From Verrucomicrobium sp. BvORR106 (GTDB lineage: Bacteria; Verrucomicrobiota; Verrucomicrobiia; Verrucomicrobiales; Verrucomicrobiaceae), in assembly GCF_000739655.1 (NCBI RefSeq), contig NZ_BATR01000098.1:1-64000 (forward strand): DNA of 64,000 bases. Direction: 5' to 3'. The notes beneath the pieces are model-generated. The model did no database searches and was not told the DNA's origin. It saw only the letters and a program-made list of their open reading frames with translations. The translations under genes and the position numbers were made by a program. Numbering within the stretch: the first letter of the stretch is position 1; the number at the start of each line of letters is the position of its first letter. Below, piece by piece: positions 22,664-41,279 of the stretch.

Positions 22664-22684
22664 CCTTTCGCGCCAAGTCCACGC

Positions 22685-25600: not shown

Positions 25601-25984
25601 GTCACCGTTCGTATGCGTGGTGTGATCGAGAAGTGCACGTACTGCGTGCAGCGTCTCGAAGAGGCCAAGATCAACCAGCGCCGCATTGCCCGCGATGACT
25701 CGAGCAAGCTGATGGTGAAGAGCGAGAGCCTCAAGGTGGCCTGCCAGGCCTCCTGTGCCGCCGACGCCATCGTCTTCGGCAACTTGGCCGACAAAGACGG
25801 TCCGGTGGCGAAGATGAAAGAACATCCGCGCAACTACCAGGTGCTCAAGTACCTCGGCACCCGCCCGCGCACCAGCTACCTGGCTAGGATTCGCAATGTG
25901 AATCCCCAGATGGCGAAGTTGGAGCTCGAAAAAGACCGCACGGTGCCGACGGGTACCTCCAGCAGCATGGAACGCTCATTCTAA
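22685..25984 (+). CDS. actB: Alternative complex III subunit B, molybdopterin-oxidoreductase-like iron-sulfur protein
   Basis: A 1099-residue fusion, as expected for ActB. A twin-arginine signal lies at residues 53-66 (SRRDFMKIMGG), so export in folded form is likely. The first 750 residues resemble the large molybdopterin oxidoreductase subunit, which in ACIII holds no cofactor. The C-terminal part is a ferredoxin-like domain with clusters starting at Cys812 (CLGCSACIVAC), Cys878 (CQQCESAPCETVCP), the CIGTRYCANNCP set and Cys984 (CTYCVQR). These fit three 4Fe-4S clusters and one 3Fe-4S. It lies between actA and actC. Confidence 0.95.
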   Translation: MKRIWQHPEVKSERRYWRSLGEFSGTPEFTEKLGREFDPSISLESPEERENSRRDFMKIMGGIAAVAGLASCRRPQQKILPFTKHVEWIVPGKSLLYATVMPRPYGSTPVVAVTHEGRPTHLQGNPLHPTNGGLDIFAQASVLDLYSESRVKKVVGKGAPTSWSKFERELRGWWEHSWSKNGGEGLALLLSPSTSPTRGSLLADFAKTYPKAAVYSYAPVSRTNELNAVKALFGEGVSLLPNYAAAKIVFSLDADFLGVDSTTEFHTKSFMKNRGPEKGTDGMSRLYVMENRYTLTGGISDHRKPTAASLIPAAAAVLAQEVAKFTKDSALQQAAAPLAQGLSDNHKQWIAVAAEDLFANLGKSIVVAGSGQSEAVHALVLAINDSLKAFGSVIDTVTVPVDKSGSIEQLTTDLTAKKVKQLFILADTDPVYDAVGFAEAAKASEAKIATLALRANHTAKHSHWILPAAHYLEAWDDVRSAEGVYSVVQPMIQPLFDGASVNDILLALLGRKHPGPARAKAVEPSKDPAAPVPAPVFEVDPAYVAVKESFTKTAGAWDEEKWNHALRDGFLPKTFYPKAKVSLNRGAVAGLVAKAPKLSAPTEQALEIVLAPDASVYDGRYIDNAWLQEAPDPITKLTWDNAAWLSPRTFKRLGLKTEGDFIEVKVGDKTLKIAAIACPGHAHDSVTIPLGYGQKVTTYVGKGTGFNAYPLRSANTDYIISGAAVAKVEGNYELAITQETYTMEARSQVREATLETFQKDEHFASHQGMDSHIPPEMSIYKGRIGVKSEENPNGFDYENIPQWGMVIDLSKCLGCSACIVACQSENNIPVVGKDQVRKGRVMQWIRMDRYFATPDNVDTDPTLEDLDNPEMVSQPVSCQQCESAPCETVCPVNATVHTEDGLNAMAYNRCIGTRYCANNCPYTARRFNFFDYNKRNPLIETKVLGLKTNNIYAGPLGEKKPQEMEQLQKNPNVTVRMRGVIEKCTYCVQRLEEAKINQRRIARDDSSKLMVKSESLKVACQASCAADAIVFGNLADKDGPVAKMKEHPRNYQVLKYLGTRPRTSYLARIRNVNPQMAKLELEKDRTVPTGTSSSMERSF

Positions 25985-25990
25985 TTTGTC

Positions 25991-27451
25991 ATGGCCCAGC
26001 AAACGGCGACCGCCTCCCACTCATCCTCAAACCAGCCGCGCATCCTTGATCGCGAACCGCTGGTCCTGAACAACCGCAGCTACAGCTGGATCACGAACCG
26101 CATCTGCGGCATCGTGGAAAACCGGCAGCCCAAGCTGTGGTGGATCCTCTTTATCCCGTCGGTGATCCTGACGGGCATCATGGCCTTCTGCTTTGTGTAC
26201 CTCATCTCCACCGGGGTGGGTGTCTGGGGCCAGAAACAGCCGGTTGCCTGGGCGTGGGACATCACAAACTTCGTGTTCTGGATCGGTATCGGTCACGCCG
26301 GCACCCTCATCTCCGCCATTCTCTTCCTCACCCGGCAGAAGTGGCGTACGGCGGTGAACCGGGCGTCTGAGGCAATGACCCTCTTCGCGGTGATGTGCGC
26401 CGGTCTCTTCCCGGCATTCCACGTCGGTCGTGTCTGGATGGTGTGGTTCCTCGCACCGGTACCGAACGCGAACGCCATCTGGCAGAACTTCAAGTCACCG
26501 CTCCTCTGGGACGTGTTTGCGGTGTCCACTTACTTCACGGTGTCCGTGATGTTCTGGTTCATCGGTCTTGTTCCCGACCTTGCGACCCTTCGCGATCGCT
26601 GCAAGCCTGGCCTTCGCCGTACCCTTTACGGGATCTTCGCCCTCGGCTGGCGTGGTGGCAACCGTCAGTGGAACCACTACGAAATGGCCTACCTCCTCCT
26701 GGCGGCCCTTTCCACCCCGCTGGTTCTTTCCGTGCACTCCGTGGTGTCCTTTGACTTCGCCACCTCGGTGGTTCCTGGCTGGCACACCACCATCTTCCCG
26801 CCCTACTTCGTCGCGGGTGCTATCTTCGGCGGCTTCGCCATGGTGCTTACACTCATGATCCCGGCCCGCCGGATCTACGGTCTCTATGACCTGATCACAG
26901 AGAAGCACATCGACAACATGGCCAAGATCATCCTGCTGACCGGTACCATCGTCGGTTACGGCTACAGCATGGAGTTCTTCATGGCCTACTACTCGGGCAA
27001 CCAGTACGAACTCCAGACCTTCCAGCTCCGTGGTCTCTACGGTCCGTCCGTCTGGTACTACTACTGCATGTTCGGCTTCAACGTCTTCGTGCCGCAGCTG
27101 TTCTGGTTCAAGTGGTGCCGTAAAAACCTGTTCGTCGTCCTCTTCGTCTGCATGTGCGTGAACGCGGGCATGTGGTATGAGCGCTACGTCATCATCGTGA
27201 CAACGCTGGAGCGCCACTTCATGCCGGGCTCCTGGCGTGTGTTCGACGCCACCTGGGTCGACAACTGGACCTTCATCGGGACGTTCGGCTTCTTCATGAT
27301 GAACTTCCTACTCTTCCTGCGCTTCCTGCCGGTGATCGCTGTGGCAGAAGTGAAGGCAGTGCTCCCTGAGGCCAACCCGCATCATGACGACCATCACGAG
27401 AAGGGTGTTCACGAACTGGAGATCGAGTACGGAAAGGTCAAGGTCTCCTAA
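25991..27451 (+). CDS. actC: Alternative complex III subunit C, NrfD/PsrC-like membrane protein
   Basis: Membrane subunit of 486 residues with about ten helices, of the NrfD/PsrC family that binds quinol in ACIII. Family features include the first loop [25 protein letters not shown] and the [13 protein letters not shown] and [14 protein letters not shown]-like central helices. A His-rich C-terminal tail ([16 protein letters not shown]) faces the cytoplasm by prediction. Starts 7 nt after actB. Confidence 0.95.
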
Positions 27452-27474
27452 CCCCTCGCTGGAGGAATTTTCAC

Positions 27475-28032
27475 ATGGCACGAACCACTCTCAAACGAGT
27501 CCACGGCTACCTGGCTGAATTTGACAGCGCCAGCGACGTTTATCACGCATCCGAGCAGATCCGCGACGCTGGCTTCCAGCGTTGGGACGTTCACTCGCCG
27601 TTCCCGATCCACGGATTGAACGAGGCGATGGGGCTCAAGCGTTCGATTCTTCCCTGGTTTGTCTTCTTTGGCGGCGCAGCGGGCATCACGACAGCCTTCT
27701 GCCTGGCTTACATCACCCAGGTGGGCATCTACCCCACGGTGGTGCAGTCCAAGCCGGCGAACATCTTCACGACAGCGGCTTTCTTCCCGATCATGTTCGA
27801 GCTGACGATTCTGTTCTCAGCGTTCACGACGGTGTTTGGTTGCTTCGCTCTGATGGGGCTTCCACGGCTGAACCACCCGCTCTTCGCGGCCAAGACCTTT
27901 AAGAAGTTCTCCGACGACGGGTTCTTTATCTGCATCGAGGCCCGCGATCCGAAGTTCCACCAGGCTGAAACCAGGGCCCTCCTGGAAGGGCTTGGCGGAA
28001 AGAACATCGAACTCGTTGAGGACGAACTGTAA
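27475..28032 (+). CDS. actD: Alternative complex III subunit D (DUF3341)
   Basis: A 185-residue membrane subunit with two central helices (about 62-85 and 100-125) flanked by soluble N- and C-terminal parts, as in the DUF3341 family. The start HGYLAEFDSASDVYHASEQIRDAGF is characteristic. In solved ACIII structures ActD packs against ActC and ActF near the membrane surface. This is one of the few genes here with a clear Shine-Dalgarno (GGAGG about 9 nt upstream). Confidence 0.93.
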   Translation: MARTTLKRVHGYLAEFDSASDVYHASEQIRDAGFQRWDVHSPFPIHGLNEAMGLKRSILPWFVFFGGAAGITTAFCLAYITQVGIYPTVVQSKPANIFTTAAFFPIMFELTILFSAFTTVFGCFALMGLPRLNHPLFAAKTFKKFSDDGFFICIEARDPKFHQAETRALLEGLGGKNIELVEDEL

Positions 28033-28047
28033 GCATCACGACTGTCC

Positions 28048-28698
28048 ATGAAATACTTTTTCCTCAGTTACTTTCTCGTCGTGGTGACGGTGGTGAGCTT
28101 TGCGGGCTTCCGCGGCCACAAGTTTGAAAAGCCTCCGATCCAGGTCTTCCCGGATATGGATGACCAAGCCAAAGTCAAGGCCCAGGTGAAGAGTCACTTC
28201 TTCGCGGACGGCGTGGGCATGCGTCACCCGGTCGCGGGCACTGTGCCCATGGGTTTCGAACATCCCAGCAAGCCGGCGAGTGAAGGCTACACGCCCCAGA
28301 CGATGGAGTTCACCCACGGATCCACGTATTACTACACCGGCAAGGTGGGGGATTACTACGGCGATGGCTTTCCTGAAGAGTTGAAGGTTTCCACCGAGTT
28401 TCTCAAGCGCGGCCAGGAACGTTACAACATCCAGTGCGCCATCTGCCATGGCACCTCCGGCAACGGCAAGGGTGTGTTCACCAAGTACTCCACCGTCGTT
28501 CCCGCCGACCTGACAGGCCCCGGCTTTGATGATGCCTCGAACCCGGCCTATCGGCCCGACGGCAAAATCTACGACACCATCACAAATGGCTGGAACCAGA
28601 TGGGCGGCTACGGCGCCAACATCACAGTGCAGGACCGCTGGGCGATCGTCGCCTACGTTCGCGCCCTCCAGCATGCGGCAAAAAATCCGGCCAAGTAA
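28048..28698 (+). CDS. actE: Alternative complex III subunit E, monoheme cytochrome c
   Basis: A 216-residue membrane-anchored cytochrome c with an N-terminal helix (about 3-20) and one CxxCH site (Cys130, Cys133, His134; CAICHGTSGNGKG). The late part MGGYGANITVQDRWAIVAYVRALQ is the usual cytochrome c C-terminal helix. It passes electrons from ActA to the next acceptor, here probably the cytochrome subunits further downstream. Confidence 0.93.
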   Translation: MKYFFLSYFLVVVTVVSFAGFRGHKFEKPPIQVFPDMDDQAKVKAQVKSHFFADGVGMRHPVAGTVPMGFEHPSKPASEGYTPQTMEFTHGSTYYYTGKVGDYYGDGFPEELKVSTEFLKRGQERYNIQCAICHGTSGNGKGVFTKYSTVVPADLTGPGFDDASNPAYRPDGKIYDTITNGWNQMGGYGANITVQDRWAIVAYVRALQHAAKNPAK

Positions 28699-28716
28699 TT
28701 TCCTTTCAAGCAAAGC

Positions 28717-30066
28717 ATGAGCGCCCATCCCATCACTCTTGACGACCTGCCGCGCGACGGAGAACGGCTCGATCTCACGAAGGTCAGCAAGCTGAACGGC
28801 TTGTTCCTCGTGATCGGCGGCCTTGGTCTGGTGGCCTCCCTGGCCTACCTCCTTGGTTTCCTTGGCGAGCAGAAGCAGGCGGAGTTCGCCTACAGCTGGT
28901 TGTTTGCCTTCTTCTTCTTCTTCACCATCACCTGCGGCGGCATCTTCTGGACCATGCTCCAGCATGCCTCCAACTCCGGCTGGAGTGTGGTGGTGCGCCG
29001 GTTGTTTGAGAACCTCGGTTCCAACATTGGCTGGATGGCGGTGTTCGTGCTTCCCTTCGTATTCATTCCCTCCGTTCAGAACGCCCTCTGGGAGTGGATT
29101 CCGATTCATCACAAAGCGGCAGAAGAGGCTGTTAAGTATAATGCGGATCATTCTGGCGCGAATTGGGGCACCTATGAAGGGCTGCACCACCTGGCGGAGA
29201 CGGATCACTCCAAGCACATCCTGACCTCCAAGTACGGCTACCTGAACCTGAGCTTCTGGTATGTTCGTGTGGTGGTGTACTTTGCCATTCTCGGTGCCCT
29301 CGCTTATTTCCTGCGCAAGTGGTCCATCCAGCAGGACAAGGACGGCAGCTTCAAGCACACGTTCCGCTCCCGCGCCTTCTGCTGCATCCTCCTGTTTCCG
29401 TTCGCCCTCGCCGTGACCTTCTCGGCGGTGGATTGGGTGATGGCGATGGACTACACCTGGTTCTCCACCATGTGGGGCGTCTACATCTTCGCCGGCGGTG
29501 CCTGGGGTGCCATGGCGGTCTCGATCCTCGCGCTGACGTATGTCCGCAGCAACGGCTACCTGCACAAGGTGACCAGTGGCGAGCACTACCACCTGATGGG
29601 CAAGCTGCTTTTCGCTTTCACGGTGTTCTGGGCGTACATCGCCTTCAGCCAGTTCTTCCTGATCTGGTACGCAAACATCACGGAAGAAACCCGCTTCTAC
29701 ATCCTGCGTAACACAGGCGGCTGGTGGTACCTCAGCCACGTGCTGGTCTGGCTCCACTTCGCAGTGTCCTTCGTGTTGCTGCTTTCCGCTGGCCGCAAGA
29801 AGCGCACCGGCGTGATGAACGCCCTCTGTTTCTGGGTGCTGCTCATGCACGTGGTGGACTGGTACTGGCTCATCATTCCCGAGCGTGGACCTTCCCTTTC
29901 CGAGGGTAAAGTCTTGTGGCTCGACGGAGCCTGGGTGGGGGATGTGATTGCCCTGCTTACCATGGGCGGTCTTTGCGGCTGGGCTTACCTGCGCCGTCTT
30001 TCCAAAGCCAGCTTGTATCCCTGCCGTGACCCCCGCCTGCTGGAGTCCGTCACCGCCACCAACTAA
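28717..30066 (+). CDS. actF: Alternative complex III subunit F, second NrfD/PsrC-like protein
   Basis: A 449-residue protein with about ten helices, a distant paralogue of ActC that completes the membrane core of ACIII. Central helices include FTVFWAYIAFSQFFLIWYANI and WVLLMHVVDWYWLIIPE, both typical of ActF. The N-terminal soluble part PITLDDLPRDGERLDL is short. It follows actE by 18 nt. Confidence 0.93.
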   Translation: MSAHPITLDDLPRDGERLDLTKVSKLNGLFLVIGGLGLVASLAYLLGFLGEQKQAEFAYSWLFAFFFFFTITCGGIFWTMLQHASNSGWSVVVRRLFENLGSNIGWMAVFVLPFVFIPSVQNALWEWIPIHHKAAEEAVKYNADHSGANWGTYEGLHHLAETDHSKHILTSKYGYLNLSFWYVRVVVYFAILGALAYFLRKWSIQQDKDGSFKHTFRSRAFCCILLFPFALAVTFSAVDWVMAMDYTWFSTMWGVYIFAGGAWGAMAVSILALTYVRSNGYLHKVTSGEHYHLMGKLLFAFTVFWAYIAFSQFFLIWYANITEETRFYILRNTGGWWYLSHVLVWLHFAVSFVLLLSAGRKKRTGVMNALCFWVLLMHVVDWYWLIIPERGPSLSEGKVLWLDGAWVGDVIALLTMGGLCGWAYLRRLSKASLYPCRDPRLLESVTATN

Positions 30067-30075
30067 GAGTTTCCC

Positions 30076-30972
30076 ATGTCGTCTCCCACGCCACCCACAC
30101 CCTCCCGAGCGCTCTCAGTCTTTCTGGGCACGCTGGCGGCATTTGCCAGCTTCGCCGTCGTGGCTGCCTTGCTGCAAGCCATCGCTGGCGGTACGCCTGA
30201 GTACCGGGATCATGATGCTCGCGTCAAAGTCAAAGAAGGCATCGCTGCTGAACAGGATGCCCTCGTTGAGAAGTACGGTCTGAAGCATGATTCGACTCCT
30301 GTGCTTGCCAAAGCCGCTGAACTTGTGAAGGAGCGCAAGCCCTCCACCTCCACGCAGGTGGTGCCTGGTTCCCCGACAGCGTTGAAGGCAGCTGCTGCTC
30401 CCGCAGCCGCTCCTGCTCCCGCACCGGAAGCTGCGAAGAAAGCGGAGGAAAAGCCTGCTGCCGCCCCAGCCCCAGCGCCTTCACCGGCCCCGGCTCCAGC
30501 GCCTTCACCGGCCCCGGCTCCAGCGCCTGCGCAGACTCCCTCACCGGAAACTCCAAAGGTCGAGGCTCCTGCCCCGGCTCCGATGCCTGCCGCGCCTGCT
30601 CCGGCAGCCGCCCCGGCTCCCGAGGCACCTAAGACGGAAGCGCCTGCGCCAGCCCCGGCACCCTCACCCGTTCCAGCTGCTCCGGCACCCGTGCCAGCCC
30701 CCGCTCCTGAGGCACCGAAGCCAACTCCGGCTCCCGCACCAGAAGCTCCTAAGTCGGAAGCGCCCGCCCCGGCTCCTGAGGCACCCAAGCCAGCTCCCGC
30801 ACCTGCCCCCGAAGCACCAGCGCCTGCTCCTGCTCCCTCCCCCGAGGCTCCGAAGACGGAAACTCCAGTTCCCGCCCCGGCCCCAGCCCCGGCTCCTGCC
30901 CCCACCACTCCCGCTCCTGAGGCTCCGGCTCCGCCTGCCGCTCCGGAAACTCCCGCACCCCAACCTCAGTAA
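30076..30972 (+). CDS. Membrane-anchored Pro/Ala-rich protein of the respiratory operon
   Basis: A 298-residue protein of unknown function, 9 nt after actF. Residues 14-37 form one helix (LSVFLGTLAAFASFAVVAALLQ), followed by a charged segment TPEYRDHDARVKVKEGIAAEQDALVEKYG. From about residue 105 to the end it is a low-complexity chain of Pro, Ala, Glu and Lys (PAPAP, PEAPK units), probably extended. It lies between ACIII and the CcoN-like gene, all on the same strand. A spacer or docking role for cytochromes on the outside of the membrane is possible but inferred. The tail length probably varies between strains. Confidence 0.7.
   Translation: MSSPTPPTPSRALSVFLGTLAAFASFAVVAALLQAIAGGTPEYRDHDARVKVKEGIAAEQDALVEKYGLKHDSTPVLAKAAELVKERKPSTSTQVVPGSPTALKAAAAPAAAPAPAPEAAKKAEEKPAAAPAPAPSPAPAPAPSPAPAPAPAQTPSPETPKVEAPAPAPMPAAPAPAAAPAPEAPKTEAPAPAPAPSPVPAAPAPVPAPAPEAPKPTPAPAPEAPKSEAPAPAPEAPKPAPAPAPEAPAPAPAPSPEAPKTETPVPAPAPAPAPAPTTPAPEAPAPPAAPETPAPQPQ
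30394..30969 (+). repeat. Coding low-complexity Pro/Ala repeat
   Basis: Irregular repeats of CCx-GCx codons (words such as CCGGCTCC and GCTCCTGAGGC) encode the PAPAP/PEAPK tail. The repeats are imperfect and in frame, with no spacer structure. Confidence 0.8.
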
Positions 30973-31003: not shown

Positions 31004-32515
31004 ATGGAGACAACTGACACGACCGTCTCAAACAGCGACAGCCTACGCCGCGCGGCCATTGACCGCTCGGTGAAGGGGCCGGTGCTCTTCCTGTTCGCCA
31101 ACGCCGCCCTTTGGCTGCTCGCATCCACCATCATGGGCTTGATCGCCTCTGTGAAGCTCGTTAAGCCGGGCTTCCTGGACTACGACTGGCTCTGGTTCCT
31201 CAACTACGGGCGCCTTCAGCCAGCCCATCTTACGGCCTTGGTCTATGGCTGGGCCATCCAGTCCGGCCTTGGTGCCAGCGTCTGGATCCTTGCCCGCCGC
31301 TCCGGTGTGGCTTTGGAGCGTGGTGCCGGATCGATGGTTACCGCTGGGGTGTTCTGGAACATCGGTGTGACGCTCGGTATCATCGGAATCCTTTTCGGCG
31401 GCAGCACTTCGCTGGCCTGGCTGGAGTTCCCGGCGTTCGTCTGGCCGCTCTTCCTGGTGTCATTCCTGATCATCGCTGGCCGCATGGTGCTGCACTTCAA
31501 CGCGGTGCAGCGTGAGAACTGGTTCTTCCTCTCCTCCTGGTACATTCTCGCGGGTCTCTTCTGCTTCCCTTGGATTTTTGCCACGGTGAATCTGTTGCTC
31601 AACCACTATGCCCCGGCTTCACCGCTTGGTGCGATTGGCGCTGGCATCAACGCCTGGTACGTGAGCAACATCATCTGGCTGTTCTTCACTCCTATTGGCT
31701 TGGGTGCCTGCTACTACTTTATCCCGAAGATCACCGGCAAGCCGGTTTTCAGCGGCCAGCTTGCGCAGTTGGGTTTCTGGGGTCTGGTGGTTCTCGGTGG
31801 CTGGACTGGCTACCAGAAGTACATGGGTGGGCCGCTTCCCGCCTGGATGTCCGCAGTCGGCGGCACCGCGGCACTGCTGCTCCTTGTTCCGGCTGGCATT
31901 GTGGCTTTGAACAACCACCTCACCACTGAGGGCAAGCGCGGCCTCATCGAGAGCAGCCCCACGCTTCGCTTCGTGTTCGTTGGTTCTTTCTGCTACGTGC
32001 TCATGAGTGGCGTGAGCGCCCTGCTGGGTACGTTCTGGACGGGTTCCAACACCCAGTTCACCTACGCCGAGTACGGCTATCAGCTCCTTGCGGTGTACGG
32101 CTTCTTCAGCATGACCATGTTCGGCGCGATTTATTACATCGTTCCCCGTCTGGCCAACTGTGAGTGGCTGAGCGCCCGCCTGATTCGCCAGCACTTCTGG
32201 TTCTCCGTTTACGGCATCAGCGCCATGGTGGTCTGCATGCTGGTCGGCGGTCTGTTCCAAGGCGCGAGCGTCAACAGCCCCGACAACTGGAATCAACCCA
32301 TGGTCGGTAGTGTCATCAACGCCCGTGGTTATCTTGTGGGCCGCTCTCTGGCCTGGGTCTTCATCCTGTGGTCGAACTTCTGGTTCTTTGTCCACCTTGT
32401 CTTCATGGTACTGGGTCTGGGACGTCGTAGCACGACGCCAACCCTGCTTGTGCATGACCGCCACCATGACTACGTCCCCGGAACTTTAACATCGGTTACC
32501 ACCAAAGAAGCATGA
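31004..32515 (+). CDS. CcoN-like heme-copper oxidase subunit I lacking catalytic ligands
   Basis: A 503-residue, twelve-helix membrane protein that aligns with cbb3 oxidase CcoN through most of its length (GRLQPAH, YYFIPKITGKPV, FGAIYYIVPRL). The low-spin heme ligand of helix 2 seems kept (His75). The other ligands are gone: GHNAV has become VSNII (His to Ser221), the CuB pair PHH has become YQK (Gln271-Lys272), and GHVHSG has become GYQLLA (His to Tyr359 and Leu361). It therefore should not bind heme b3 or CuB or reduce oxygen. It precedes a CcoO-like gene with a 4-nt overlap. I infer a structural role in an electron-transfer module. The alignment was made by eye. Confidence 0.85.
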   Translation: METTDTTVSNSDSLRRAAIDRSVKGPVLFLFANAALWLLASTIMGLIASVKLVKPGFLDYDWLWFLNYGRLQPAHLTALVYGWAIQSGLGASVWILARRSGVALERGAGSMVTAGVFWNIGVTLGIIGILFGGSTSLAWLEFPAFVWPLFLVSFLIIAGRMVLHFNAVQRENWFFLSSWYILAGLFCFPWIFATVNLLLNHYAPASPLGAIGAGINAWYVSNIIWLFFTPIGLGACYYFIPKITGKPVFSGQLAQLGFWGLVVLGGWTGYQKYMGGPLPAWMSAVGGTAALLLLVPAGIVALNNHLTTEGKRGLIESSPTLRFVFVGSFCYVLMSGVSALLGTFWTGSNTQFTYAEYGYQLLAVYGFFSMTMFGAIYYIVPRLANCEWLSARLIRQHFWFSVYGISAMVVCMLVGGLFQGASVNSPDNWNQPMVGSVINARGYLVGRSLAWVFILWSNFWFFVHLVFMVLGLGRRSTTPTLLVHDRHHDYVPGTLTSVTTKEA

Positions 32516-33189
32516 CCAGCTTGCGCAAACTCGTGATTGGATTGGGTGTCAGTTTCGGAGCTCCGTGGCTCCTGCTGGTCGTCATTCCTGCTCTCAAAGC
32601 CCAGAAGACCGTTCCTATCCCGTACGACAAGGATCGTGATGGATTGACCGGCTTCTATCCGGCCGAAGGTGTGTACCGCCAAGGTCAGCTCGTCTATCTT
32701 AAAGAGGGATGCGTGCAGTGCCACACCCAGGTTATCCGCACCACCTTCAACAACATCTCTGATGGCTGGAAGAAGGGGTGGGGGAGTGATCAAAGCGATA
32801 TTCCGAAGCATGTTGTGCGCGCCAGCACCATGCGTGACTACCTCGGTGAGCCAGTGGCTCCTCTAGGTGTCCAGCGGAATGGTCCGGACCTCGCCAACTT
32901 CGGCTACCGTGTGGTGGGTGAAGCCGGCCGTGAAGCTCTTCACGTGAAGCTGTATGCCCCGCGTTCCCAGAATGAGTGGAGCATCATGCCGTCCTACCGC
33001 CACCTCTACAAGGTGCAGAAGATTCAAGGTGCCGGTTCTCCCGACGCTCTGAAGCTTCCGAAGGATCTGGCTCCCAAGAAAGGCTACGAAGTGGTGCCGA
33101 CCGCCGAAGCCGTGGAACTGGTGAACTACCTTTGCTCCCTGAAAAAAGACGCCCCCGAGCCCGGCAAGGTGGTGGCTGACAGCAAGTAA
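32512..33189 (+). CDS. CcoO-like monoheme cytochrome c
   Basis: A 225-residue protein resembling the cytochrome subunit CcoO of cbb3 oxidases. One N-terminal helix (about 5-27) is followed by the heme site LKEGCVQCHTQVIR (Cys67, Cys70, His71). The downstream RNGPDLANFG and SIMPSY match the CcoO region that carries the Met ligand (Met159). Unlike its CcoN-like partner, the redox site is intact. Its ATG overlaps the partner's stop by 4 nt, so the two are co-translated. Likely role: membrane-bound electron carrier between ACIII and the oxidase (inferred). Confidence 0.88.
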   Translation: MTSLRKLVIGLGVSFGAPWLLLVVIPALKAQKTVPIPYDKDRDGLTGFYPAEGVYRQGQLVYLKEGCVQCHTQVIRTTFNNISDGWKKGWGSDQSDIPKHVVRASTMRDYLGEPVAPLGVQRNGPDLANFGYRVVGEAGREALHVKLYAPRSQNEWSIMPSYRHLYKVQKIQGAGSPDALKLPKDLAPKKGYEVVPTAEAVELVNYLCSLKKDAPEPGKVVADSK

Positions 33190-33198
33190 CGACGAGCC

Positions 33199-33897
33199 AT
33201 GAACGAGAATCAGCCCCAGAACTTTGACAATACTGACCTCGACCGCCTTCACGCTGCCGTGAAGCGCGAGAAGCCTGACGCCCAGCCTGGCCGCGAACCT
33301 GCTCCCTTGTGGGTGTTTGTCGCCAGCATGGCCGCCATGGTGCTCGCCGGTGGCTACGCCGGAGCTTACGTCGGTGGATTTGAATTCGAGCAGAACTCGC
33401 CCTACCTCGGGAAGGTGACGGATACTCGGCCGATCAAGCTTGATGTCGCAGACACTCTCGATCCCTTCGCCCTAGCGATGAAAAAGGGTGCCGATTCCTA
33501 CAACAGCTGCCAGGGCTGTCACGGTGCATCCGGTGGTGGTCAGCCAGGCCTGATCCCGCCGCTCGCTGGTTCGGAATGGGTTGCAGGTGGCACCGAGCGC
33601 ATCGCCCGTATTGCCCTTCACGGCCTGAGCGGTAGCGTCACTGTCAAAGGTGCAAACTACAATGGCGTGATGCCTCCTCAGTCGGGCCTTTCCGACAAGG
33701 AACTTTCCTACGTGATCACTTACATCCGGAACTCCTGGGGCAACAAGGGCTCCTTGGTGACGCCGGACATGGTGAAGAAAGTCCGCGCCGAAACGAAGGC
33801 CCATGTGGGTCCCTGGACGGCCGCCACACTCTCGGAGTTTGCCGAAAAGGACATTCCGGGCGAAGCTCCCGCAGCCGCCGCGCCCGCAGCCAAGTAA
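33199..33897 (+). CDS. Membrane-anchored monoheme cytochrome c (CcoP-like position)
   Basis: A 232-residue protein with a soluble N-terminal 35 residues, one helix (about 37-60) and a class I cytochrome c domain. Heme site CQGCHG at Cys104, Cys107, His108; the likely Met ligand lies in YNGVMPPQ. The ANYNGVMPPQSGLSDKELSYVITYIRNSWG stretch is the usual cytochrome c C-terminal half. CcoP normally has two hemes; this has one, so it is only a positional counterpart. It ends with an Ala-rich tail. It could donate electrons directly to the CuA site of the oxidase. Confidence 0.85.
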   Translation: MNENQPQNFDNTDLDRLHAAVKREKPDAQPGREPAPLWVFVASMAAMVLAGGYAGAYVGGFEFEQNSPYLGKVTDTRPIKLDVADTLDPFALAMKKGADSYNSCQGCHGASGGGQPGLIPPLAGSEWVAGGTERIARIALHGLSGSVTVKGANYNGVMPPQSGLSDKELSYVITYIRNSWGNKGSLVTPDMVKKVRAETKAHVGPWTAATLSEFAEKDIPGEAPAAAAPAAK

Positions 33898-33982: not shown

Positions 33983-35836
33983 ATGAGCGCTGTTACCGCC
34001 CACCACGATCACTCGCATGCGGATCATGCTCACGAGCACGATCACCCGAAGCAGAGCTTCCTCTACAAGTACATCTTCAGTACCGACCACAAGGTCATCG
34101 GGATCCAGTACGGTCTCACTGCGATGTGCTTCCTGCTGTGGGGCTTCTTCCTCATGATGGTGATGCGCTGGAGCATCGCCTTCCCTGGTACGGAAATGCC
34201 CCTCTTCGGCCATCTGATGGGCGAACGCTGGGCTCCTGGTGGGGTGGTTAGCCCTGAGCTCTACAACATGTTTGGGGCCATGCACGGCACCATCATGGTG
34301 TTCTTGGGCGTGGTGCCTCTCGGTTTCGCCGCTTTCGGCAACTACATCATGCCGCTGCAGATTGGTGCAGTGGATATGGCGTTCCCCAAGCTCAACGCCT
34401 GGAGCTACTGGCTCTACTTCATCGGCGGTGTGCTCATGATGCTGAGCTTCTTCCTCCCGACGGGTGCTGCCCAGGTGGGTTGGACGAACTACTCTCCTCT
34501 GGCCACGACCGCACAGATCGACGTGAAGAACATCTTCTTCACCGGTCAGACGCAGTGGTTGTTCTCCATGGTGTTCCTGATCTCTTCCTCGCTGTTGGGC
34601 TCGGTGAACTTCATCACCACCATCCTCAACCTGCGCTGCAAAGGGATGACCTGGATGCGCCTGCCCTTCTTCTGCTGGGCCATGTTGGTCGTCGGTTTCC
34701 TGCTTCTCCTTGCTTTCCCCCCGCTTGAAGTCGCTGCCGTCATGCAGCTCGCTGACCGTCTCTTCGGTTCCAGCTTCTTCCTTCCGACGGGCTTGGTGGA
34801 AGCCAACAAACACCTCGACATCGCCGGTGGTGGCAGCCCGCTGCTCTACCAGCACTTGTTCTGGTTCCTCGGTCACCCGGAAGTGTACGTGCTCATCCTT
34901 CCGGCCATCGCCATCGTTTCTGACGTCATCCCGGCCAACATTCGTCGTCCGCTCTGGGGCTACAAGTCCATGATCTACGGCGTGCTCACGTTGGGCTTCC
35001 TGAGCTTCATCGTGTGGGCTCACCACATGTACCTCACGGGCATGGGACCGGTGGTCTCCACCTTCTTCCAGATCACCACGGTGTTGATCTCGGTGCCGTC
35101 CGTGATTCTTCTGACGTGCTTGATGATCACCCTCTGGGGCGGTTCCATCCGCTTCAACACGGCGATGCTGTTCGCCTGTGCGTTCCTTCCGATGTTCGGT
35201 ATCGGTGGTCTTACCGGTCTGCCGCTGGCCTTCAGCACGATCGACCTCTATCTGCACGACACCTACTACGTGATTGGTCACTTCCACTATGTGGTGGCTC
35301 CGGGCACGATCTTTGGTCTCTTCGCCGGCATCTACCACTGGTACCCGAAGATGACGGGCCGTTTCATGAACGAGACGCTTGGTCGCCTGCACTTCTGGCC
35401 TTCCTTGCTGTGCATGAACCTGCTGTTCTCCCCGATGTTGATTCAGGGTATGGCAGGCTTCCACCGCCGCTGGCATGATGGTGGGGTTGCTTTCGCTGGT
35501 ACGTCCAGTGGCGACTGGATGGGCATCCCTCTTTTGAAGCTCAACGAAGTGATGTCCTTTGCTGCTTGGGGTCTGGCCATTGCCCAGGTGCCTTTCATCC
35601 TGAACCTGTTCTTCAGCATCAAGGGTGGTAAGAAGGTGAAGTCGGACAACCCATGGCAGGCCACCACGCTGGAGTGGGCCACCCCGACACCTCCCGGACA
35701 CGGCAACTTCCTTCAAGAGCCCGTGGTTTACCGCGACGCTTACGACTACAGCGTTCCTGGCGCCGAAACGGATTATTCCCCGCAGTGGCTTCCAGAAGGC
35801 GTGAAGCCTGAGGAAAAGCTCACCCACATGCATTGA
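33983..35836 (+). CDS. ctaD: Cytochrome c oxidase subunit I (A1-type aa3/caa3)
   Basis: Catalytic subunit that reduces oxygen to water and pumps protons. The 617-residue protein has a His-rich N-terminus and twelve helices. All ligands are present: His101 and His435 for low-spin heme a, His433 for heme a3, and His298, His347 and His348 for CuB, with the cross-linked Tyr302. The D-channel Asp131 and the Glu300 in GHPEVY mark an A1-type pump. This is the real oxidase of the operon, in contrast to the degenerate CcoN-like protein upstream. Confidence 0.97.
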   Translation: MSAVTAHHDHSHADHAHEHDHPKQSFLYKYIFSTDHKVIGIQYGLTAMCFLLWGFFLMMVMRWSIAFPGTEMPLFGHLMGERWAPGGVVSPELYNMFGAMHGTIMVFLGVVPLGFAAFGNYIMPLQIGAVDMAFPKLNAWSYWLYFIGGVLMMLSFFLPTGAAQVGWTNYSPLATTAQIDVKNIFFTGQTQWLFSMVFLISSSLLGSVNFITTILNLRCKGMTWMRLPFFCWAMLVVGFLLLLAFPPLEVAAVMQLADRLFGSSFFLPTGLVEANKHLDIAGGGSPLLYQHLFWFLGHPEVYVLILPAIAIVSDVIPANIRRPLWGYKSMIYGVLTLGFLSFIVWAHHMYLTGMGPVVSTFFQITTVLISVPSVILLTCLMITLWGGSIRFNTAMLFACAFLPMFGIGGLTGLPLAFSTIDLYLHDTYYVIGHFHYVVAPGTIFGLFAGIYHWYPKMTGRFMNETLGRLHFWPSLLCMNLLFSPMLIQGMAGFHRRWHDGGVAFAGTSSGDWMGIPLLKLNEVMSFAAWGLAIAQVPFILNLFFSIKGGKKVKSDNPWQATTLEWATPTPPGHGNFLQEPVVYRDAYDYSVPGAETDYSPQWLPEGVKPEEKLTHMH

Positions 35837-35903: not shown

Positions 35904-37331
35904 ATGGAAATTCCATACACCGTCAAACCCCGGCCGGACACCGGACTGTTCAATGCGAAGATCGGCATCTGGCTGTTCCTCGCTTCTGAAGTGATGCTCT
36001 TCGGCGGTCTTTTCTCTGCCTACATCTTCCTGCGCATCGCCCCCGAAGGCCCCTGGCCTGTTCAGGTGCTGACCGTTAAGTGGGGTTTCATCAACACCCT
36101 TGTGCTGATCTTCTCCAGTGTCACCGTGCTGCAGGCGTGGGTGGCTCTGAAGTTGAGGAAGTTCCGGTTGTTCCAGGTTTGGATGACTCTCACTATCCTC
36201 TGCGCTGGTGGCTTCATGGCCATCAAGTCCGTCGAGTACGCTGACAAGTTCCATCACTTCGGTGTTTTGCTTAAGGACGGCAGCTCCTTGGAAGGTCACT
36301 TCCCGGAAGATCATCCTTATCACATCAAGTTTGATGAGGTGAAGACCGTGACGCTGGCCTCCAAGCACATGGACAAGGGCCTCTTTGACTGGAGACTTTT
36401 CCGCCATGGTTCTGACGGTGGTTTCCTCAAGTACATTGTGGACGGCAAGCCTGAGTTCAAAGATGCCGCCGGTAACTTGGTGACGTTGGATGCAGCTACC
36501 GTGAAGAAGTTGGTGCACGATGCTCAGGAGAAGAAGATCGACTTCATTGTCCTTACCGCGACCAATCCGCTCAAGTTTGACATCCCGCCGTCGAAGCTCT
36601 TCGACAACGCCTACGATGCTCACAAAGCCCATTTCCGTGATGGCACAGTGATCGACGGCAAGCTGGCCTATGATTCGATGCACCTTGAAGTGGACCGGAT
36701 CGATCTGCGCCGCCTCTTCGCTGCAGACGAGAAGAGCGACCAGAAGGCCTTTGAAAGCGTGCAGAACGCTGACGTGTGGCGTGTCCTCGGTGGCGACTGG
36801 AAGAAGAAGTTCAACGAGCACCACGATGTGGAACTGAACAAGTTCATCGAGAAGCACAAGAGCCAGAAGAAGCCCCAACAGCCCATGGACAACAGCGACT
36901 ACGTTCGCCACGTCTATGCCATGAAGATCAGCCTGGACGACTCCCACGGTCACGCCAACGCTGCCAAGACGGGTGGGGAAGGGCTTGCTGCTGAAGCCGC
37001 TGGTGACTCCCATGGCGCTCACGCTGCGGAAGCTCATGCTGGCAGCCACGGCCATCCTCTGGTTGTGATCGGGAAGAAGGACATTTCCTTCTGGTCCAAC
37101 TTCACTCCCAAGTACGGAAACTACTTCGCCATCTACTTCACTCTGACGGGCCTGCACGGTCTGCACGTGATCGGCGGCGCACTTGTACTGAGCCACATGT
37201 TGTTGTTCGGCAAGAGGATCTACGACAAGGACCCTGACCACCTGGCAAACCGTGTGGAAGTGGGCGGCCTGTTCTGGCACTTCGTGGATCTGGTCTGGAT
37301 CTTCCTGTTCCCGCTGCTGTATCTCCTCTAA
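35904..37331 (+). CDS. ctaE: Cytochrome c oxidase subunit III with a large internal insert
   Basis: Accessory membrane subunit of the oxidase, 475 residues against the usual 190-270. Helices at about 20-45, 57-83, 90-110, 405-435 and 452-474 give a five-helix subunit of the caa3 type. The third helix ends SVEYADKFHHFG and the fourth begins with GLHGLHVIGG; these are normally joined by a short loop. Here about 280 residues (roughly 117-400) are inserted, mainly hydrophilic with mixed strands and helices, ending in a His/Ala-rich stretch. The insert is in frame and codon use looks like the rest. Function of the insert unknown. Confidence 0.9.
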   Translation: MEIPYTVKPRPDTGLFNAKIGIWLFLASEVMLFGGLFSAYIFLRIAPEGPWPVQVLTVKWGFINTLVLIFSSVTVLQAWVALKLRKFRLFQVWMTLTILCAGGFMAIKSVEYADKFHHFGVLLKDGSSLEGHFPEDHPYHIKFDEVKTVTLASKHMDKGLFDWRLFRHGSDGGFLKYIVDGKPEFKDAAGNLVTLDAATVKKLVHDAQEKKIDFIVLTATNPLKFDIPPSKLFDNAYDAHKAHFRDGTVIDGKLAYDSMHLEVDRIDLRRLFAADEKSDQKAFESVQNADVWRVLGGDWKKKFNEHHDVELNKFIEKHKSQKKPQQPMDNSDYVRHVYAMKISLDDSHGHANAAKTGGEGLAAEAAGDSHGAHAAEAHAGSHGHPLVVIGKKDISFWSNFTPKYGNYFAIYFTLTGLHGLHVIGGALVLSHMLLFGKRIYDKDPDHLANRVEVGGLFWHFVDLVWIFLFPLLYLL

Positions 37332-37384: not shown

Positions 37385-37720
37385 ATGGCTCACGACCATC
37401 ACGACCACGACAGTCCGGAATACTACAAGAAGCAGTCCAAGATCATCTGGGCGGTTGGTGGTGTTCTCGTCCTTGGCACCCTCATCACCGTCGGGGTGAT
37501 GGACTGGGACATGGGCTCCCGCGCCGCCAACATTGCGTTCGGCATGTTCATCGCCCTGGTGAAAGCCAGCTTTGTCGCCCTCATCTTCATGCACTTGAAG
37601 AGTGAACGCGGTCTCATCTACAAGGTTCTCTTCTTCACCGTGCTTTTTGCGATCGGCCTCTTCGTGCTGACTTACCTCGGCTACGCTGATCCGCTGCACT
37701 CCAAGTTCATCGGTTACTGA
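37385..37720 (+). CDS. Cytochrome c oxidase subunit IV
   Basis: A 111-residue small subunit with three helices (about 22-40, 50-70 and 77-97) after a His/Asp-rich start (AHDHHDHDSPEYYKK). The KASFVALIFMHLKSE segment is characteristic of prokaryotic subunit IV (CoxD/CyoD-like), thought to stabilise the CuB site during assembly. It lies between ctaE and two very small membrane protein genes. Confidence 0.88.
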   Translation: MAHDHHDHDSPEYYKKQSKIIWAVGGVLVLGTLITVGVMDWDMGSRAANIAFGMFIALVKASFVALIFMHLKSERGLIYKVLFFTVLFAIGLFVLTYLGYADPLHSKFIGY

Positions 37721-38155: not shown

Positions 38156-38986
38156 ATGATACCCGATTCGATGATCACCCTTGCCACCCTGAACAAGCTT
38201 CTGGGGATTCCCGCTCTTGCTTCTGAACACGGCGAGATGGTGGACCACATGCTTGAGCTGGTGCACTGGTTCATGTTGCTCCTTTTCATCGGCTGGTCCG
38301 CCTTCCTGGTGGTCGTCTTCACCAAGTTCCGTCAGAGCAAGAATCCCAAGGCCGACTATCACGGTGTCCGCGGTCACGCCTCCACTCACATTGAGATCGG
38401 CGTGGTCATCGTGGAAGCCATCCTTCTGCTCGGTTTCGCTTTCCCGCTCTGGGGCCAGCAATCTGAAAAATACCCTTCCGGCAACAACGTGCTGAAGGTA
38501 CGTGCTGTGGGCGAGAAGTTCCTCTGGAGCTTCCAGTATGGTGGTACCGACAATACCCTGGGCCGCACCGCTCTCAAGCTGATCGATATCGGCACCAACC
38601 CTCCGAACACGATCGGTCGCGACATGAAGGACCCGAACGGCAAGGATGACTTCGTGAAGGTGGGCGTGATGACCCTTCCGGTGAACCGCCCCGTGATCGT
38701 GGACGTGACCAGCAAGGACGTGATTCACAACCTTGCTCTTGTGCCGATGCGTATGGCACAGGATGCCACCCCTGGCGTTCGCAGCCACGCCTGGTTCAAG
38801 CCAACCAAGACTGGGTCCTGGGACATCATCTGCGGTCAGCTTTGTGGCCCCGGCCACTCCGGCATGAAGGCCACGTTGAACGTGATCGAGCAAAAGGAGT
38901 TCGACGAATTCGTTAAGGAAAACAGCGACACCGCCAAGGCCGCAGTCGAAGCCACCCCGGCTCCTGCTGCCCCGGCAGCCCACTGA
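38156..38986 (+). CDS. ctaC: Cytochrome c oxidase subunit II (CuA)
   Basis: Electron entry subunit of 276 residues with two helices (about 34-58 and 80-100) and a periplasmic cupredoxin domain. CuA ligands: His191 (IHNLALVP), Cys226, Cys230, His234 and Met237 (CGQLCGPGHSGM). The position usually Glu between the cysteines is Gln228; only its backbone carbonyl binds copper, so the site should be functional. There is no fused cytochrome c domain, so the donor must be a separate protein, likely the cytochromes encoded just upstream. It is the last gene of the operon, unlike the common ctaC-ctaD order. Confidence 0.95.
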   Translation: MIPDSMITLATLNKLLGIPALASEHGEMVDHMLELVHWFMLLLFIGWSAFLVVVFTKFRQSKNPKADYHGVRGHASTHIEIGVVIVEAILLLGFAFPLWGQQSEKYPSGNNVLKVRAVGEKFLWSFQYGGTDNTLGRTALKLIDIGTNPPNTIGRDMKDPNGKDDFVKVGVMTLPVNRPVIVDVTSKDVIHNLALVPMRMAQDATPGVRSHAWFKPTKTGSWDIICGQLCGPGHSGMKATLNVIEQKEFDEFVKENSDTAKAAVEATPAPAAPAAH

Positions 38987-39125: not shown

Positions 39126-40175
39126 ATGAACTGGACCCGATTTCAAAAGCTGGCCCTGATAGCGTTCATCTCGGTGGAAGTGCTCATCTTTGTGGGCGCA
39201 GTAGTGCGGGCGACTGGCTCAGGCCTCGGATGTCCCGACTGGCCTCTCTGCTATGGATGCTGGACTCCGCCGACCAAAGCGGAGGACATCGATTTCAAAA
39301 AACTCAACATCGAGAAGTTCCGGGCGAAGGCCGCGAGACTGGGGCGGGATCCCGCTTCCATCACCCCGGAGACGTTGAGGGCCGAGTTTGATCCTGTCGC
39401 CACCTGGGTAGAGTACATCAACCGTCTGACCAGCCTCCCGGTGGGGCTGTCTGTGACCGCTCTTCTCGTGGCGTCTTTTTGGCAGATCTGGGCGGGTCGC
39501 TTCCGGGTCTTTGCCGGTGCACTCGGTTCCTTCGCCCTGGTGCTGATCAACGCCTGGTTGGGCGCGCGGGTGGTTCTCAGCGGTCTGAAGCCCGGCATCA
39601 TCACCTTGCACATGGCTTTGGCCATTCTCTTGCAGTGTTTTCTCGTGTACACCGCCTGGCGTGGCACTTCTCAACCGTGGAAGCTTCCCGTGATCGGGGG
39701 CGGGGGCAAAGCTCTGTTTCGCATTGGGCTGCTGCTGTTTGCCCTGGTCGTGTTGGAGGGTGTCATGGGGTCCCAAGTTCGGGAGATGACGGATCACCTT
39801 GCCATGCTCCACGCGGGGGAGAAGCGTGAGCTCTGGGTCAAGGAACTGGATCAAACGGTCGTTTACCTCCTCCATCGGAGTTTCTCATGGATTATCTTGG
39901 GAGTGGCTTTCCTGTTTCACTGGAAGTCAACTCAAGTGCTTGGCCGAGTCGGTTGGCTGGAAAGAGGGATTGTGGGACTCGTTTGCGCTCAGATGGTGCT
40001 CGGTGTGGTACTGTCCCAGGTCGGAATCGTTCGGATCGCACAGATTCTCCACATTGGCTTGTCTTCCCTGCTGGTGAGTGGATTGTTCCTCTGGCTGCTC
40101 GGCAGCCATCGGGCAACCCGGGCGAAAGACTTGTCAGCACCGATGGAGACCGATGCGCCCAGTCCTGTAGTTTAG
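39126..40175 (+). CDS. ctaA: Heme A synthase (COX15/CtaA)
   Basis: Oxidises heme O to heme A for the aa3 oxidase. The 349-residue membrane protein has about eight helices. The VRATGSGLGCPDWPLCYG motif in the first loop and EYINRLTSLPVG are family signatures, and His residues in HMALAI and LLHRSFSW are likely heme ligands. A CPDWPLC pair may form the loop disulfide known in this family. It begins a second gene group after the operon terminator. Confidence 0.93.
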   Translation: MNWTRFQKLALIAFISVEVLIFVGAVVRATGSGLGCPDWPLCYGCWTPPTKAEDIDFKKLNIEKFRAKAARLGRDPASITPETLRAEFDPVATWVEYINRLTSLPVGLSVTALLVASFWQIWAGRFRVFAGALGSFALVLINAWLGARVVLSGLKPGIITLHMALAILLQCFLVYTAWRGTSQPWKLPVIGGGGKALFRIGLLLFALVVLEGVMGSQVREMTDHLAMLHAGEKRELWVKELDQTVVYLLHRSFSWIILGVAFLFHWKSTQVLGRVGWLERGIVGLVCAQMVLGVVLSQVGIVRIAQILHIGLSSLLVSGLFLWLLGSHRATRAKDLSAPMETDAPSPVV

Positions 40176-40206
40176 ATTTCCCAGTCCCGTCTTTTCAGAG
40201 AGCCAG

Positions 40207-41157
40207 ATGCAGAGTTCCGTCATGTCAGAGACCGCCACCTCGTCGAATACCCCATCCAACGTCACGATGAAGGACCTGATGTCGCTGACGAAGTTTCGTC
40301 TCAGTGTTCTCGTGTTGGTGACCACCTTTGTGGGTTACTGGCTTGGGCGCAGTGGGCAGGATCTGAACTTGCCATTGATGTTTCACACCCTGCTGGGCAG
40401 TGCCTTGGCCGCCTTTGGCGCGGCGGTGTTTAACCAGTTGATGGAGATCGAGCCGGACAAGCGGATGGACCGCACAGCGGATCGCCCCCTGCCTTCGCGC
40501 CGGATGGAGCCGGGTGTGGCCTTTGGAGTCGGCTGGCTGCTCAGCGCCTTTGCCTTGTTGCACCTGGGGAAGATGGTGAACGTGGAGTCCGCCGCTCTCT
40601 GTGCCATGACGCTCGCGGTCTATCTCTTCATCTACACCCCCATGAAGCAGCAATCGGCTTGGAACACGATTGTGGGCGCGGTGTCCGGCGCTTTGCCGCC
40701 GCTCATCGGGTGGGCTGGGGCCGCAGGTCCCCCGGTCAACAATGACGCTTACTTCCGTCTGGAATTGATTTCTTCCAGCGGGGCCATCTTCCTGTTCTCT
40801 CTGCTTTTCCTCTGGCAGCTCCCTCACTTCCTCGCGATCAACTGGATGTACCGGGATGAGTACCGCAAGGGCGGCTTTGTCATGTGGGCCAATGAGGATG
40901 ATACGGGGGGCAAAACCTCCAAGCTGGCCCTGCTTTTTTCATTCTGTGCCGTGGCGCTCGTGTTCCTGCCTCCCTTTGCGGGGGACACCACCTACTGGTT
41001 CCTCCCTTTTGCGCTTCTGGTGAACCTGATGCTGGTGTGGCTGGCCTGGAAGTTCTACAAAATTCGCGACCGGGCGAGTGCACGGAAGTTGTTCTTCTTC
41101 ACCCTCATGTACCTGCCACTCCTGCTGGGTATCAGCATGGTGTTCTGGAAAGCCTGA
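40207..41157 (+). CDS. ctaB: Protoheme IX farnesyltransferase (heme O synthase)
   Basis: Adds a farnesyl group to heme B to make heme O, the substrate of CtaA. The 316-residue protein is a UbiA-type prenyltransferase with about nine helices. The first aspartate-rich motif lies in NQLMEIEPDKRMDRTADRPL and the second in WMYRDEYRKGGF. ATG at 40222 (MSETATSS) is an equally plausible start. Located 31 nt after ctaA. Confidence 0.94.
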   Translation: MQSSVMSETATSSNTPSNVTMKDLMSLTKFRLSVLVLVTTFVGYWLGRSGQDLNLPLMFHTLLGSALAAFGAAVFNQLMEIEPDKRMDRTADRPLPSRRMEPGVAFGVGWLLSAFALLHLGKMVNVESAALCAMTLAVYLFIYTPMKQQSAWNTIVGAVSGALPPLIGWAGAAGPPVNNDAYFRLELISSSGAIFLFSLLFLWQLPHFLAINWMYRDEYRKGGFVMWANEDDTGGKTSKLALLFSFCAVALVFLPPFAGDTTYWFLPFALLVNLMLVWLAWKFYKIRDRASARKLFFFTLMYLPLLLGISMVFWKA

Positions 41158-41279
41158 TCAGCCGCCAACGGCGTGGCATTTTGCCACGTAGCGGCCTCGC
41201 CGTTCGTAAGCGTACTGGATCCTGTTACCATTCCTCTCTTCGACCTCCGCCTCCGTCTATCCCCGTGTCTGATCAAGCC

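Follow-up and report, generated by a model that had tools for sequence, protein, structure and literature searches.

The window analysed here is a stretch of 64,000 nucleotides from Verrucomicrobium sp. BvORR106 (contig NZ_BATR01000098.1, positions 1 to 64,000). At 31004-33897 it carries a trio of genes for a CcoN-like protein, a CcoO-like cytochrome and a monoheme cytochrome c, which lies between the genes of alternative complex III (ACIII) and those of an aa3 oxidase. The CcoN-like protein keeps the fold of subunit I of a C-family heme-copper oxidase and has lost its active site, and it is well supported that the ligands are gone, that the altered protein is retained and that the change arose repeatedly. 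We lean, by a little, towards the explanation that it is now a pseudo-oxidase scaffold holding the exit cytochrome of ACIII, including, in the window's lineage, the hand-over to the aa3 oxidase; the physical complex, the electron path and the scaffold role are what we infer from these data.

The CcoN-like protein (31004..32515, + strand, 503 aa) has an AlphaFold model, built from 51 sequences, with a predicted local distance difference test score (pLDDT) of 91.7 and a predicted template modelling score (pTM) of 0.92. The cbb3 CcoN chains rank first in both Foldseek and VIA-align (3mk7: Z 46.6, root-mean-square deviation 2.0 over 444 residues), and the protein thus has the CcoN fold of a C-family heme-copper oxygen reductase, as the first-pass annotation had proposed. 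In the alignment to the CcoN chains of the PDB, H75 falls on the helix-2 heme His, also recognised in that annotation, while S221 stands at one CuB His, Q271-K272 at the CuB His pair, Y359 and L361 at the two helix-X His positions and G265 at the cross-link Tyr. The metal served by each aligned residue is assigned from family knowledge, and we take the second helix-X His, the L361 position, to serve the low-spin heme b. H75 is the sole residue left of the seven ligand and Tyr positions. All three CuB His and the cross-link Tyr are replaced (S221, Q271, K272, G265), and of the heme b3 His and the two low-spin heme b His (Y359, L361) H75 alone is present, so that the binuclear heme-metal site of a working O2 or NO reductase is missing. 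The alignment could have placed other conserved His at these positions, but there is none except H75 and the losses stand. The four replacements described earlier (S221, Q271-K272, Y359 and L361) are confirmed, except that L361 marks a low-spin heme b position and not one of CuB or the high-spin heme. Because L361 stands where a low-spin heme b ligand belongs, the bis-His site of that heme is lost too, and neither heme should be bound in the usual way.

Relatives were scored as dead or intact on these seven positions (six ligand His and the cross-link Tyr). The first sample comprises the best match of 60 genomes, from 91 with matches among 288 genomes of the phylum searched (matches in 19 of the 91 were left out of the reading), the best 80 of 528 named loci (Phragmitibacter, Prosthecobacter, Luteolibacter, Rubritalea, Roseibacillus, Haloferula and other genera), and five plasmid loci of Proteobacteria, read from ten that were listed among 377 plasmid records with a match. 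Together with the window this makes 146 rows, or 145 distinct ones after removal of one duplicate. All seven residues are present in 30 rows (25 verrucomicrobial and 5 proteobacterial), and 115 rows are dead, a ratio that is not a frequency, as the named loci are biased towards the window's kind. Four residues are missing in 3 of the dead rows, five in 9, six in 88 and seven in 15, and none of the 145 lacks one to three, leaving a gap between the two states. The loss is shared by homologues from many genera, and named strains with it are, among others, Rubritalea marina DSM 17716 (L169), Rubritalea profundi SAORIC-165 (L155), Luteolibacter marinus (L146) and Roseibacillus ishigakijimensis (L172). 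Intact relatives do exist, which might have meant that the window simply holds one decayed copy; they point instead to a repeated change from enzyme to pseudo-enzyme. Five loci (L055, L063, L161, L177 and L235) have lost the active site and retain both low-spin heme b His, possibly a halfway state.

The second sample was drawn from 113 genomes of the class, 84 of which have ActC (E 1e-80), and its forty previously unread loci comprise 29 dead and 11 intact ones. ActC is on the same contig in 35 of the 40 (29 dead, 6 intact); the remaining five loci are intact without exception and include L273, which belongs to a different lineage. Thirteen additional loci comprise four dead loci of methanotrophs and nine intact loci of other CcoN groups (L221-L229), with no ACIII gene match near the latter. 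Two of these nine, L226 and L227, encode an intact CcoN-CcoO-cytochrome c set in genomes (G018, G099) that also carry a dead trio. The proteobacterial loci (L034-L038, on plasmids or megaplasmids) are intact in five of five cases and two are annotated as cbb3 subunits; there is no ActC within ~8.7 kb upstream of them, and no search aimed at dead cases outside Verrucomicrobiota was made. The genome of the window itself has a second CcoN elsewhere, on contig C151, and in that copy the seven residues are complete. The window protein does not reach the cut-off of NCBIfam TIGR00780 ccoN (119.9 vs 583.15 bits), and neither do two intact trio members (L057, 250.3 bits; L034, 266.5 bits). The Glu of canonical cbb3 CcoN is absent in the window and equally absent in the intact trio members shown.

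The CcoN trees, built without the seven ligand columns, need three changes with 93 rows (excluding L151 and L158) as with 81 rows (including both): one in the large clade that holds the window, one in a second clade, and one in L079, which lies within intact rows. These changes are read as losses because the proteobacterial and canonical outgroups are intact. A single origin of the dead state is rejected (p 5.1e-5; 49 rows, all dead rows constrained together), as is a grouping of L079 with the second clade (p 0.002), and the union of the two large dead clades, A and B, is borderline (p 0.046). Since the long branches of the dead rows may be drawn together in such trees, ACIII genes were used for trees as well. 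Nine changes are needed on the ActC tree (48 rows), which is weak in places and has long rows (L151, L098) that may be mis-extracted, and nine on the ActBCD tree (39 rows), made by a quick method. The gene's own tree counts three losses and the ACIII genes nine, the latter a figure that could be too high if trio genes moved from one lineage to another.

The dead ccoN is kept by purifying selection and is not in plain decay, because its reading frame is open and the ratio of non-synonymous to synonymous substitution rates (dN/dS) between the window and its congener L039 is 0.023 (ccoO 0.045, cytochrome c 0.039, ctaD 0.011, actC 0.004). The shared loss together with this ratio shows a conserved and retained change, in favour of the earlier interpretation. 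Of 16 dead pairs, 14 have a finite dS and give dN/dS of 0.023-0.242, the top values (0.15-0.24) being three clade-B pairs; four of five intact pairs give 0.012-0.074. New constraints appear in the window's own dead clade, which holds 89 of the 115 dead rows when 19 clade-B/L079 rows and 7 divergent rows are set aside. W451 is found in 87/89 and Q351 in 88/89 of these rows, in contrast to G and H, respectively, in 30/30 intact rows, and position 272 is K or R in 82/89. Y403, W147 and R474 are also fixed in this clade, unlike in the 30 intact rows.

The CcoO-like monoheme cytochrome (32512..33189, +) starts 4 bases inside ccoN and has a CXXCH motif (CVQCH) and the axial Met (in SIMPSY). It scores 46.1 bits against FixO, over a cut-off of 29.6, and qualifies as a monoheme CcoO. 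The third protein (33199..33897, +) is a CcoP-like monoheme cytochrome c with an N-terminal hydrophobic stretch, CQGCH and a Met in VMPP; its single CXXCH sets it apart from a diheme CcoP, and it is proposed to be the exit carrier of ACIII. With open reading frames assigned by profile searches, CcoO is found in 114/115 dead loci, all 114 with CXXCH, and the cytochrome c in 113/115, with CXXCH in 112; in the two loci lacking it the sequence ends within 0.9 kb of ccoN. Both have matches in the fetched stretch of 29/29 dead loci of the second sample. The Met of the cytochrome c is kept in 112/113 dead and 28/28 intact rows, and that of CcoO in 28/28 intact rows with CcoO vs 55/114 dead rows. The statement that both partners keep their heme sites therefore holds in the window, but the axial Met of CcoO is gone in 59 of the 114 dead relatives. 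Judging by these motifs, it is doubtful that CcoO carries electrons in half of the dead lineages, and the constant carrier is the cytochrome c of the third gene.

A further protein is encoded in the slot between ActF and CcoN (30076..30972, +). In the window it has one N-terminal hydrophobic stretch, a long Pro/Ala tail and no heme. This tail varies among relatives, being Pro/Ala-rich in the window and bearing a heme c motif in some related loci. The motif occurs in 29/49 loci with a CcoO Cys vs 1/48 dead loci with the CcoO Met, a lead that comes from a crude choice of open reading frames and from related lineages.

The surrounding genes are on the + strand throughout from actA (21848) to ctaB (41157). 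Neighbouring genes are spaced by 6-23 bases within the act set and by -4 to 85 bases over the whole run from actA through the COX4_pro gene. ACIII is encoded by actABCDEF (21848..30066, +), directly ahead of the slot protein and the trio, in keeping with the placement described at first. ActA (21848-22663, five CXXCH), ActB (22685-25984) and ActC (25991-27451) match chains of the solved ACIII 6f0k (E 8.9e-60, 1.4e-207 and 5.1e-171), with 6btm and 6lod also among the structure matches. ActD (27475-28032), ActE (28048-28698, one CXXCH) and ActF (28717-30066) are assigned by order and by matches among relatives, and the whole has the homology and gene order of ACIII. Downstream, CtaD, the A-family oxidase subunit I (33983..35836, +), has the heme and CuB motifs GHPEVY, AHH and GHFH in its translation, and CoxB (38156..38986, +) has a CuA motif and no CXXCH, i.e. 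no fused cytochrome c. An oxidase with these motifs and a cytochrome-free subunit II does follow the trio, as the first-pass annotation noted. Between them lie CoxC (35904..37331, +; 475 aa), in which a hydrophilic stretch of ~280 residues separates two COX3-matching parts, and a COX4_pro-type small subunit (37385..37720, +). A COX15/CtaA-type heme A synthase, the heme O synthase CtaB and an SCO1/SenC protein complete the cluster (39126..42038, +).

Among relatives the trio keeps company with ACIII. In the first sample ActC is upstream in 97/100 dead loci having enough upstream sequence; the exceptions, L041-L043, have only ActE and ActF near, and the ~9.3 kb ahead of their trio show no ActC. 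Upstream of ActE, L041 encodes an aminotransferase and a caspase-domain protein. Downstream of the dead trio, 110 testable first-sample loci have CtaD in 87 cases, CoxB only in 1 and neither in 22. Intact verrucomicrobial loci have ActC in 25/25 and CtaD in 3/24 testable cases (L060, L151, L158), and these three look like the state before the loss, since they already have an A-family oxidase after a trio that is still intact. Because the intact verrucomicrobial relatives share the order ACIII-CcoN-CcoO-cytochrome c, the ancestor was probably an ACIII-linked C-family oxidase. In the second sample a CcoN-like gene lies downstream of ActC in the same direction in 63/84 ActC genomes. The other 21 comprise ten of group g5, a distant ActC that is 41-45% identical, three in which ActC and the CcoN-like gene are on different contigs, and eight with none beside ActC, some of them where a contig ends. 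Some genomes, those of methanotrophs among them, also have a second ActC copy that lacks a trio. At L220 (G152:C1:359894-361198) the ActC before a dead trio has three stops and two split matches, and actC is possibly broken or misassembled there. A CtaD match is present in 7/29 dead and 4/11 intact loci of the second sample. For the class as a whole, gene order shows a tie of the trio to ACIII only.

CtaD (E 1e-40 or better) is found somewhere in the genome in 40/40 cases with a dead trio and 17/21 with an intact one (61 genomes); the four genomes without it (G128, G228, G001, G146) are two pairs of one genus each. Among 38 CtaD neighbourhoods, which are not all CtaD places and of which L215 repeats the L060 cluster, the CoxB has a CXXCH in 0/18 beside a trio vs 31/35 unlinked (exceptions L185, L199, L200, L201). 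No CoxB was found in the CtaD neighbourhoods L198 and L216.

The scaffold explanation derives the trio from a functioning C-family oxidase (CcoN-CcoO-cytochrome c) whose genes formed one unit with those of ACIII. In several lineages of Verrucomicrobia the reduction of oxygen would have passed to other oxidases and CcoN would have lost its active site, CcoN and CcoO being retained to anchor the monoheme cytochrome c to ACIII. For the window's lineage this means that electrons may pass from menaquinol to the ACIII hemes (ActA/ActE), on to the trio cytochrome c and then to the CuA of the adjacent aa3. With five CXXCH in ActA and none in CoxB, ActE or the trio cytochrome c is left as donor, and we infer that it is the latter.

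Several observations weigh against this explanation. The axial Met of CcoO is replaced in the dead rows that lack it by Cys (53), His (2), Arg (2), Ala (1) or Lys (1), and no oxidase adjoins the trio in 22/110 testable dead loci. In the second sample no CtaD is seen within ~5 kb in 22/29 dead loci, some cut by contig ends. Over the class as a whole, an adjacent aa3 is therefore no marker of the dead state. ACIII occurs without the trio in 18/84 ActC genomes (ten of them g5, with the three split-contig cases uncounted). The contrast in CoxB runs along oxidase lineages and lacks phylogenetic independence, and the unlinked oxidase of clade B mostly has its own cytochrome c (17/18). ActE could also feed CuA directly, by analogy with what is proposed for Rhodothermus. 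The scaffold explanation is weakened because most dead loci of the second sample lack CtaD nearby and some ACIII genomes lack the trio. The earlier suggestion of a fixed bridge or scaffold is accordingly kept in part. The conserved loss, purifying selection, placement beside ACIII, heme motifs and cytochrome-free subunit II speak for it, but the tie is to ACIII first, since aa3 is absent downstream in some dead loci.

An alternative is that CcoN and CcoO are kept solely for the stability or assembly of ACIII, with the trio cytochrome c serving various acceptors and no fixed bridge to aa3. The trio does stay with ACIII where no oxidase adjoins it (22/110, and 22/29 in the second sample), and half of the dead loci have lost the CcoO Met. 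In the window's lineage, however, aa3 follows directly and lacks a cytochrome c of its own, and some genomes have ACIII without any trio; this alternative is rather unlikely, although it is the strongest of the rivals. It is also conceivable, if improbable, that CcoN acquired a new chemistry, such as a heme b bound by H75 together with another residue, or a path for ions that is coupled to ACIII. H75 is kept in 92% of the window's clade, where His is newly conserved at 464 (79%, present in the window) and 116 (85%) and Q and K/R are conserved at the CuB site, and the five loci with both low-spin heme His but no active site would suit this idea as well. Yet H75 is missing in 28/115 dead rows and position 116 is Val in the window. 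Plain decay of a redundant oxidase on its way out, to which the intact relatives, the longer branches of dead rows and the high dN/dS of the three clade-B pairs might point, is rejected as very improbable in view of the open frame and purifying selection, a loss common to many genera in two samples, the newly conserved residues and the retained partner genes. Least probable of all is that the protein assists the assembly of the neighbouring aa3 oxidase or the insertion of its cofactors: ctaA, ctaB and SCO are in the same cluster, but where aa3 lies elsewhere the trio is still found with ACIII.

The dead trio is also found in family f4. Five f4 genomes have pmoA-type genes (PF02461), and in these the ACIII genes are followed by dead CcoN, CcoO, cytochrome c, CtaD, CoxC and CoxB, although for L219 only ActD-ActF are inside the examined stretch. 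Five more f4 genomes (L256, L258-L261), compared at the ligand positions, are the same there. Over the ten loci the seven positions read SESSHFV, or ADAAHQ followed by T, V or I, those of L219 being read by eye. At 11343-17033 of L219 (G072), NosZ, NosD and an ABC protein are encoded between ActF and the dead CcoN, an arrangement like that reported for Methylacidiphilum caldifontis IT6 (PMC11102522). Because the placement of nosZ/nosD is the same, f4 is taken as the methanotroph family. One f4 genome, G008, has ActC and no CcoN-like match, unlike the ten others with the dead trio. It would fit the published description in which PQ17 has aa3 and ba3 and the others an additional cbb3 (PMC8170126).

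In published work, cbb3 is listed as a terminal oxidase (PMC10205796) and tied to the high oxygen affinity of methanotrophs (PMC6688271), and the "cbb3" found with ACIII in verrucomicrobial methanotrophs and Opitutaceae is treated as a working oxidase (PMC8498564, PMC6688271). The neighbourhood is the same as the one described here, but the ten f4 loci are without the ligands, and on this reading the methanotroph protein called a cbb3 oxidase would have no active site. Calls of "cbb3 oxidase" beside ACIII, used for methanotroph oxygen affinity (PMC6688271), may thus rest on a protein without a site, and call for caution. The preservation of dead CcoN by selection suggests that it is now a structural part of the electron chain in many Verrucomicrobia, and that among the "cbb3 oxidases" in print there are proteins that do not work as oxidases. 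Repeated loss of an active site in a protein still held by strong selection is a replicated case of conversion from enzyme to scaffold, and comparison of intact and dead clusters makes the hand-over of electrons from ACIII to oxidase a testable question. No account of a CcoN without its ligands next to ACIII was met in the literature searched; one might stand in Refojo 2010 or in Muntyan 2015, whose "unknown group" is cited in PMC5492636.

More tentatively, and with somewhat less confidence than the scaffold itself, it is possible that in the class Verrucomicrobiae a pseudo-oxidase was repeatedly recruited as a structural component alongside ACIII, and if the trees of the ACIII genes are correct this happened about nine times. 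This would be a third architecture for coupling ACIII to an oxidase, with a dead cbb3-like core tethering the wiring cytochrome, and some lineages would have been rewired further (CcoO axial Met to Cys, heme c in the slot protein). Compared with cbb3 CcoN/CcoO/CcoP, the window system shares the fold over 444 residues, a monoheme CcoO-like partner and a cytochrome c partner, but it keeps H75 alone of the ligands and its third subunit has one heme motif, not two. In the Rhodothermus marinus ACIII-caa3 a cytochrome c is fused to subunit II (PMC5928083); the window has the same five-heme ActA, ActE and oxidase genes beside ACIII, but its subunit II lacks the fused cytochrome c. For the Flavobacterium johnsoniae ACIII-aa3 the proposed link is a sixth heme, carried by a mobile domain of ActA (PMC8552683). 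The combination of ACIII with an A-family oxidase is alike, but the window ActA has five CXXCH and no sixth. The trio cytochrome c may do the job of the fused cytochrome c of Rhodothermus or of the sixth ActA heme of Flavobacterium.

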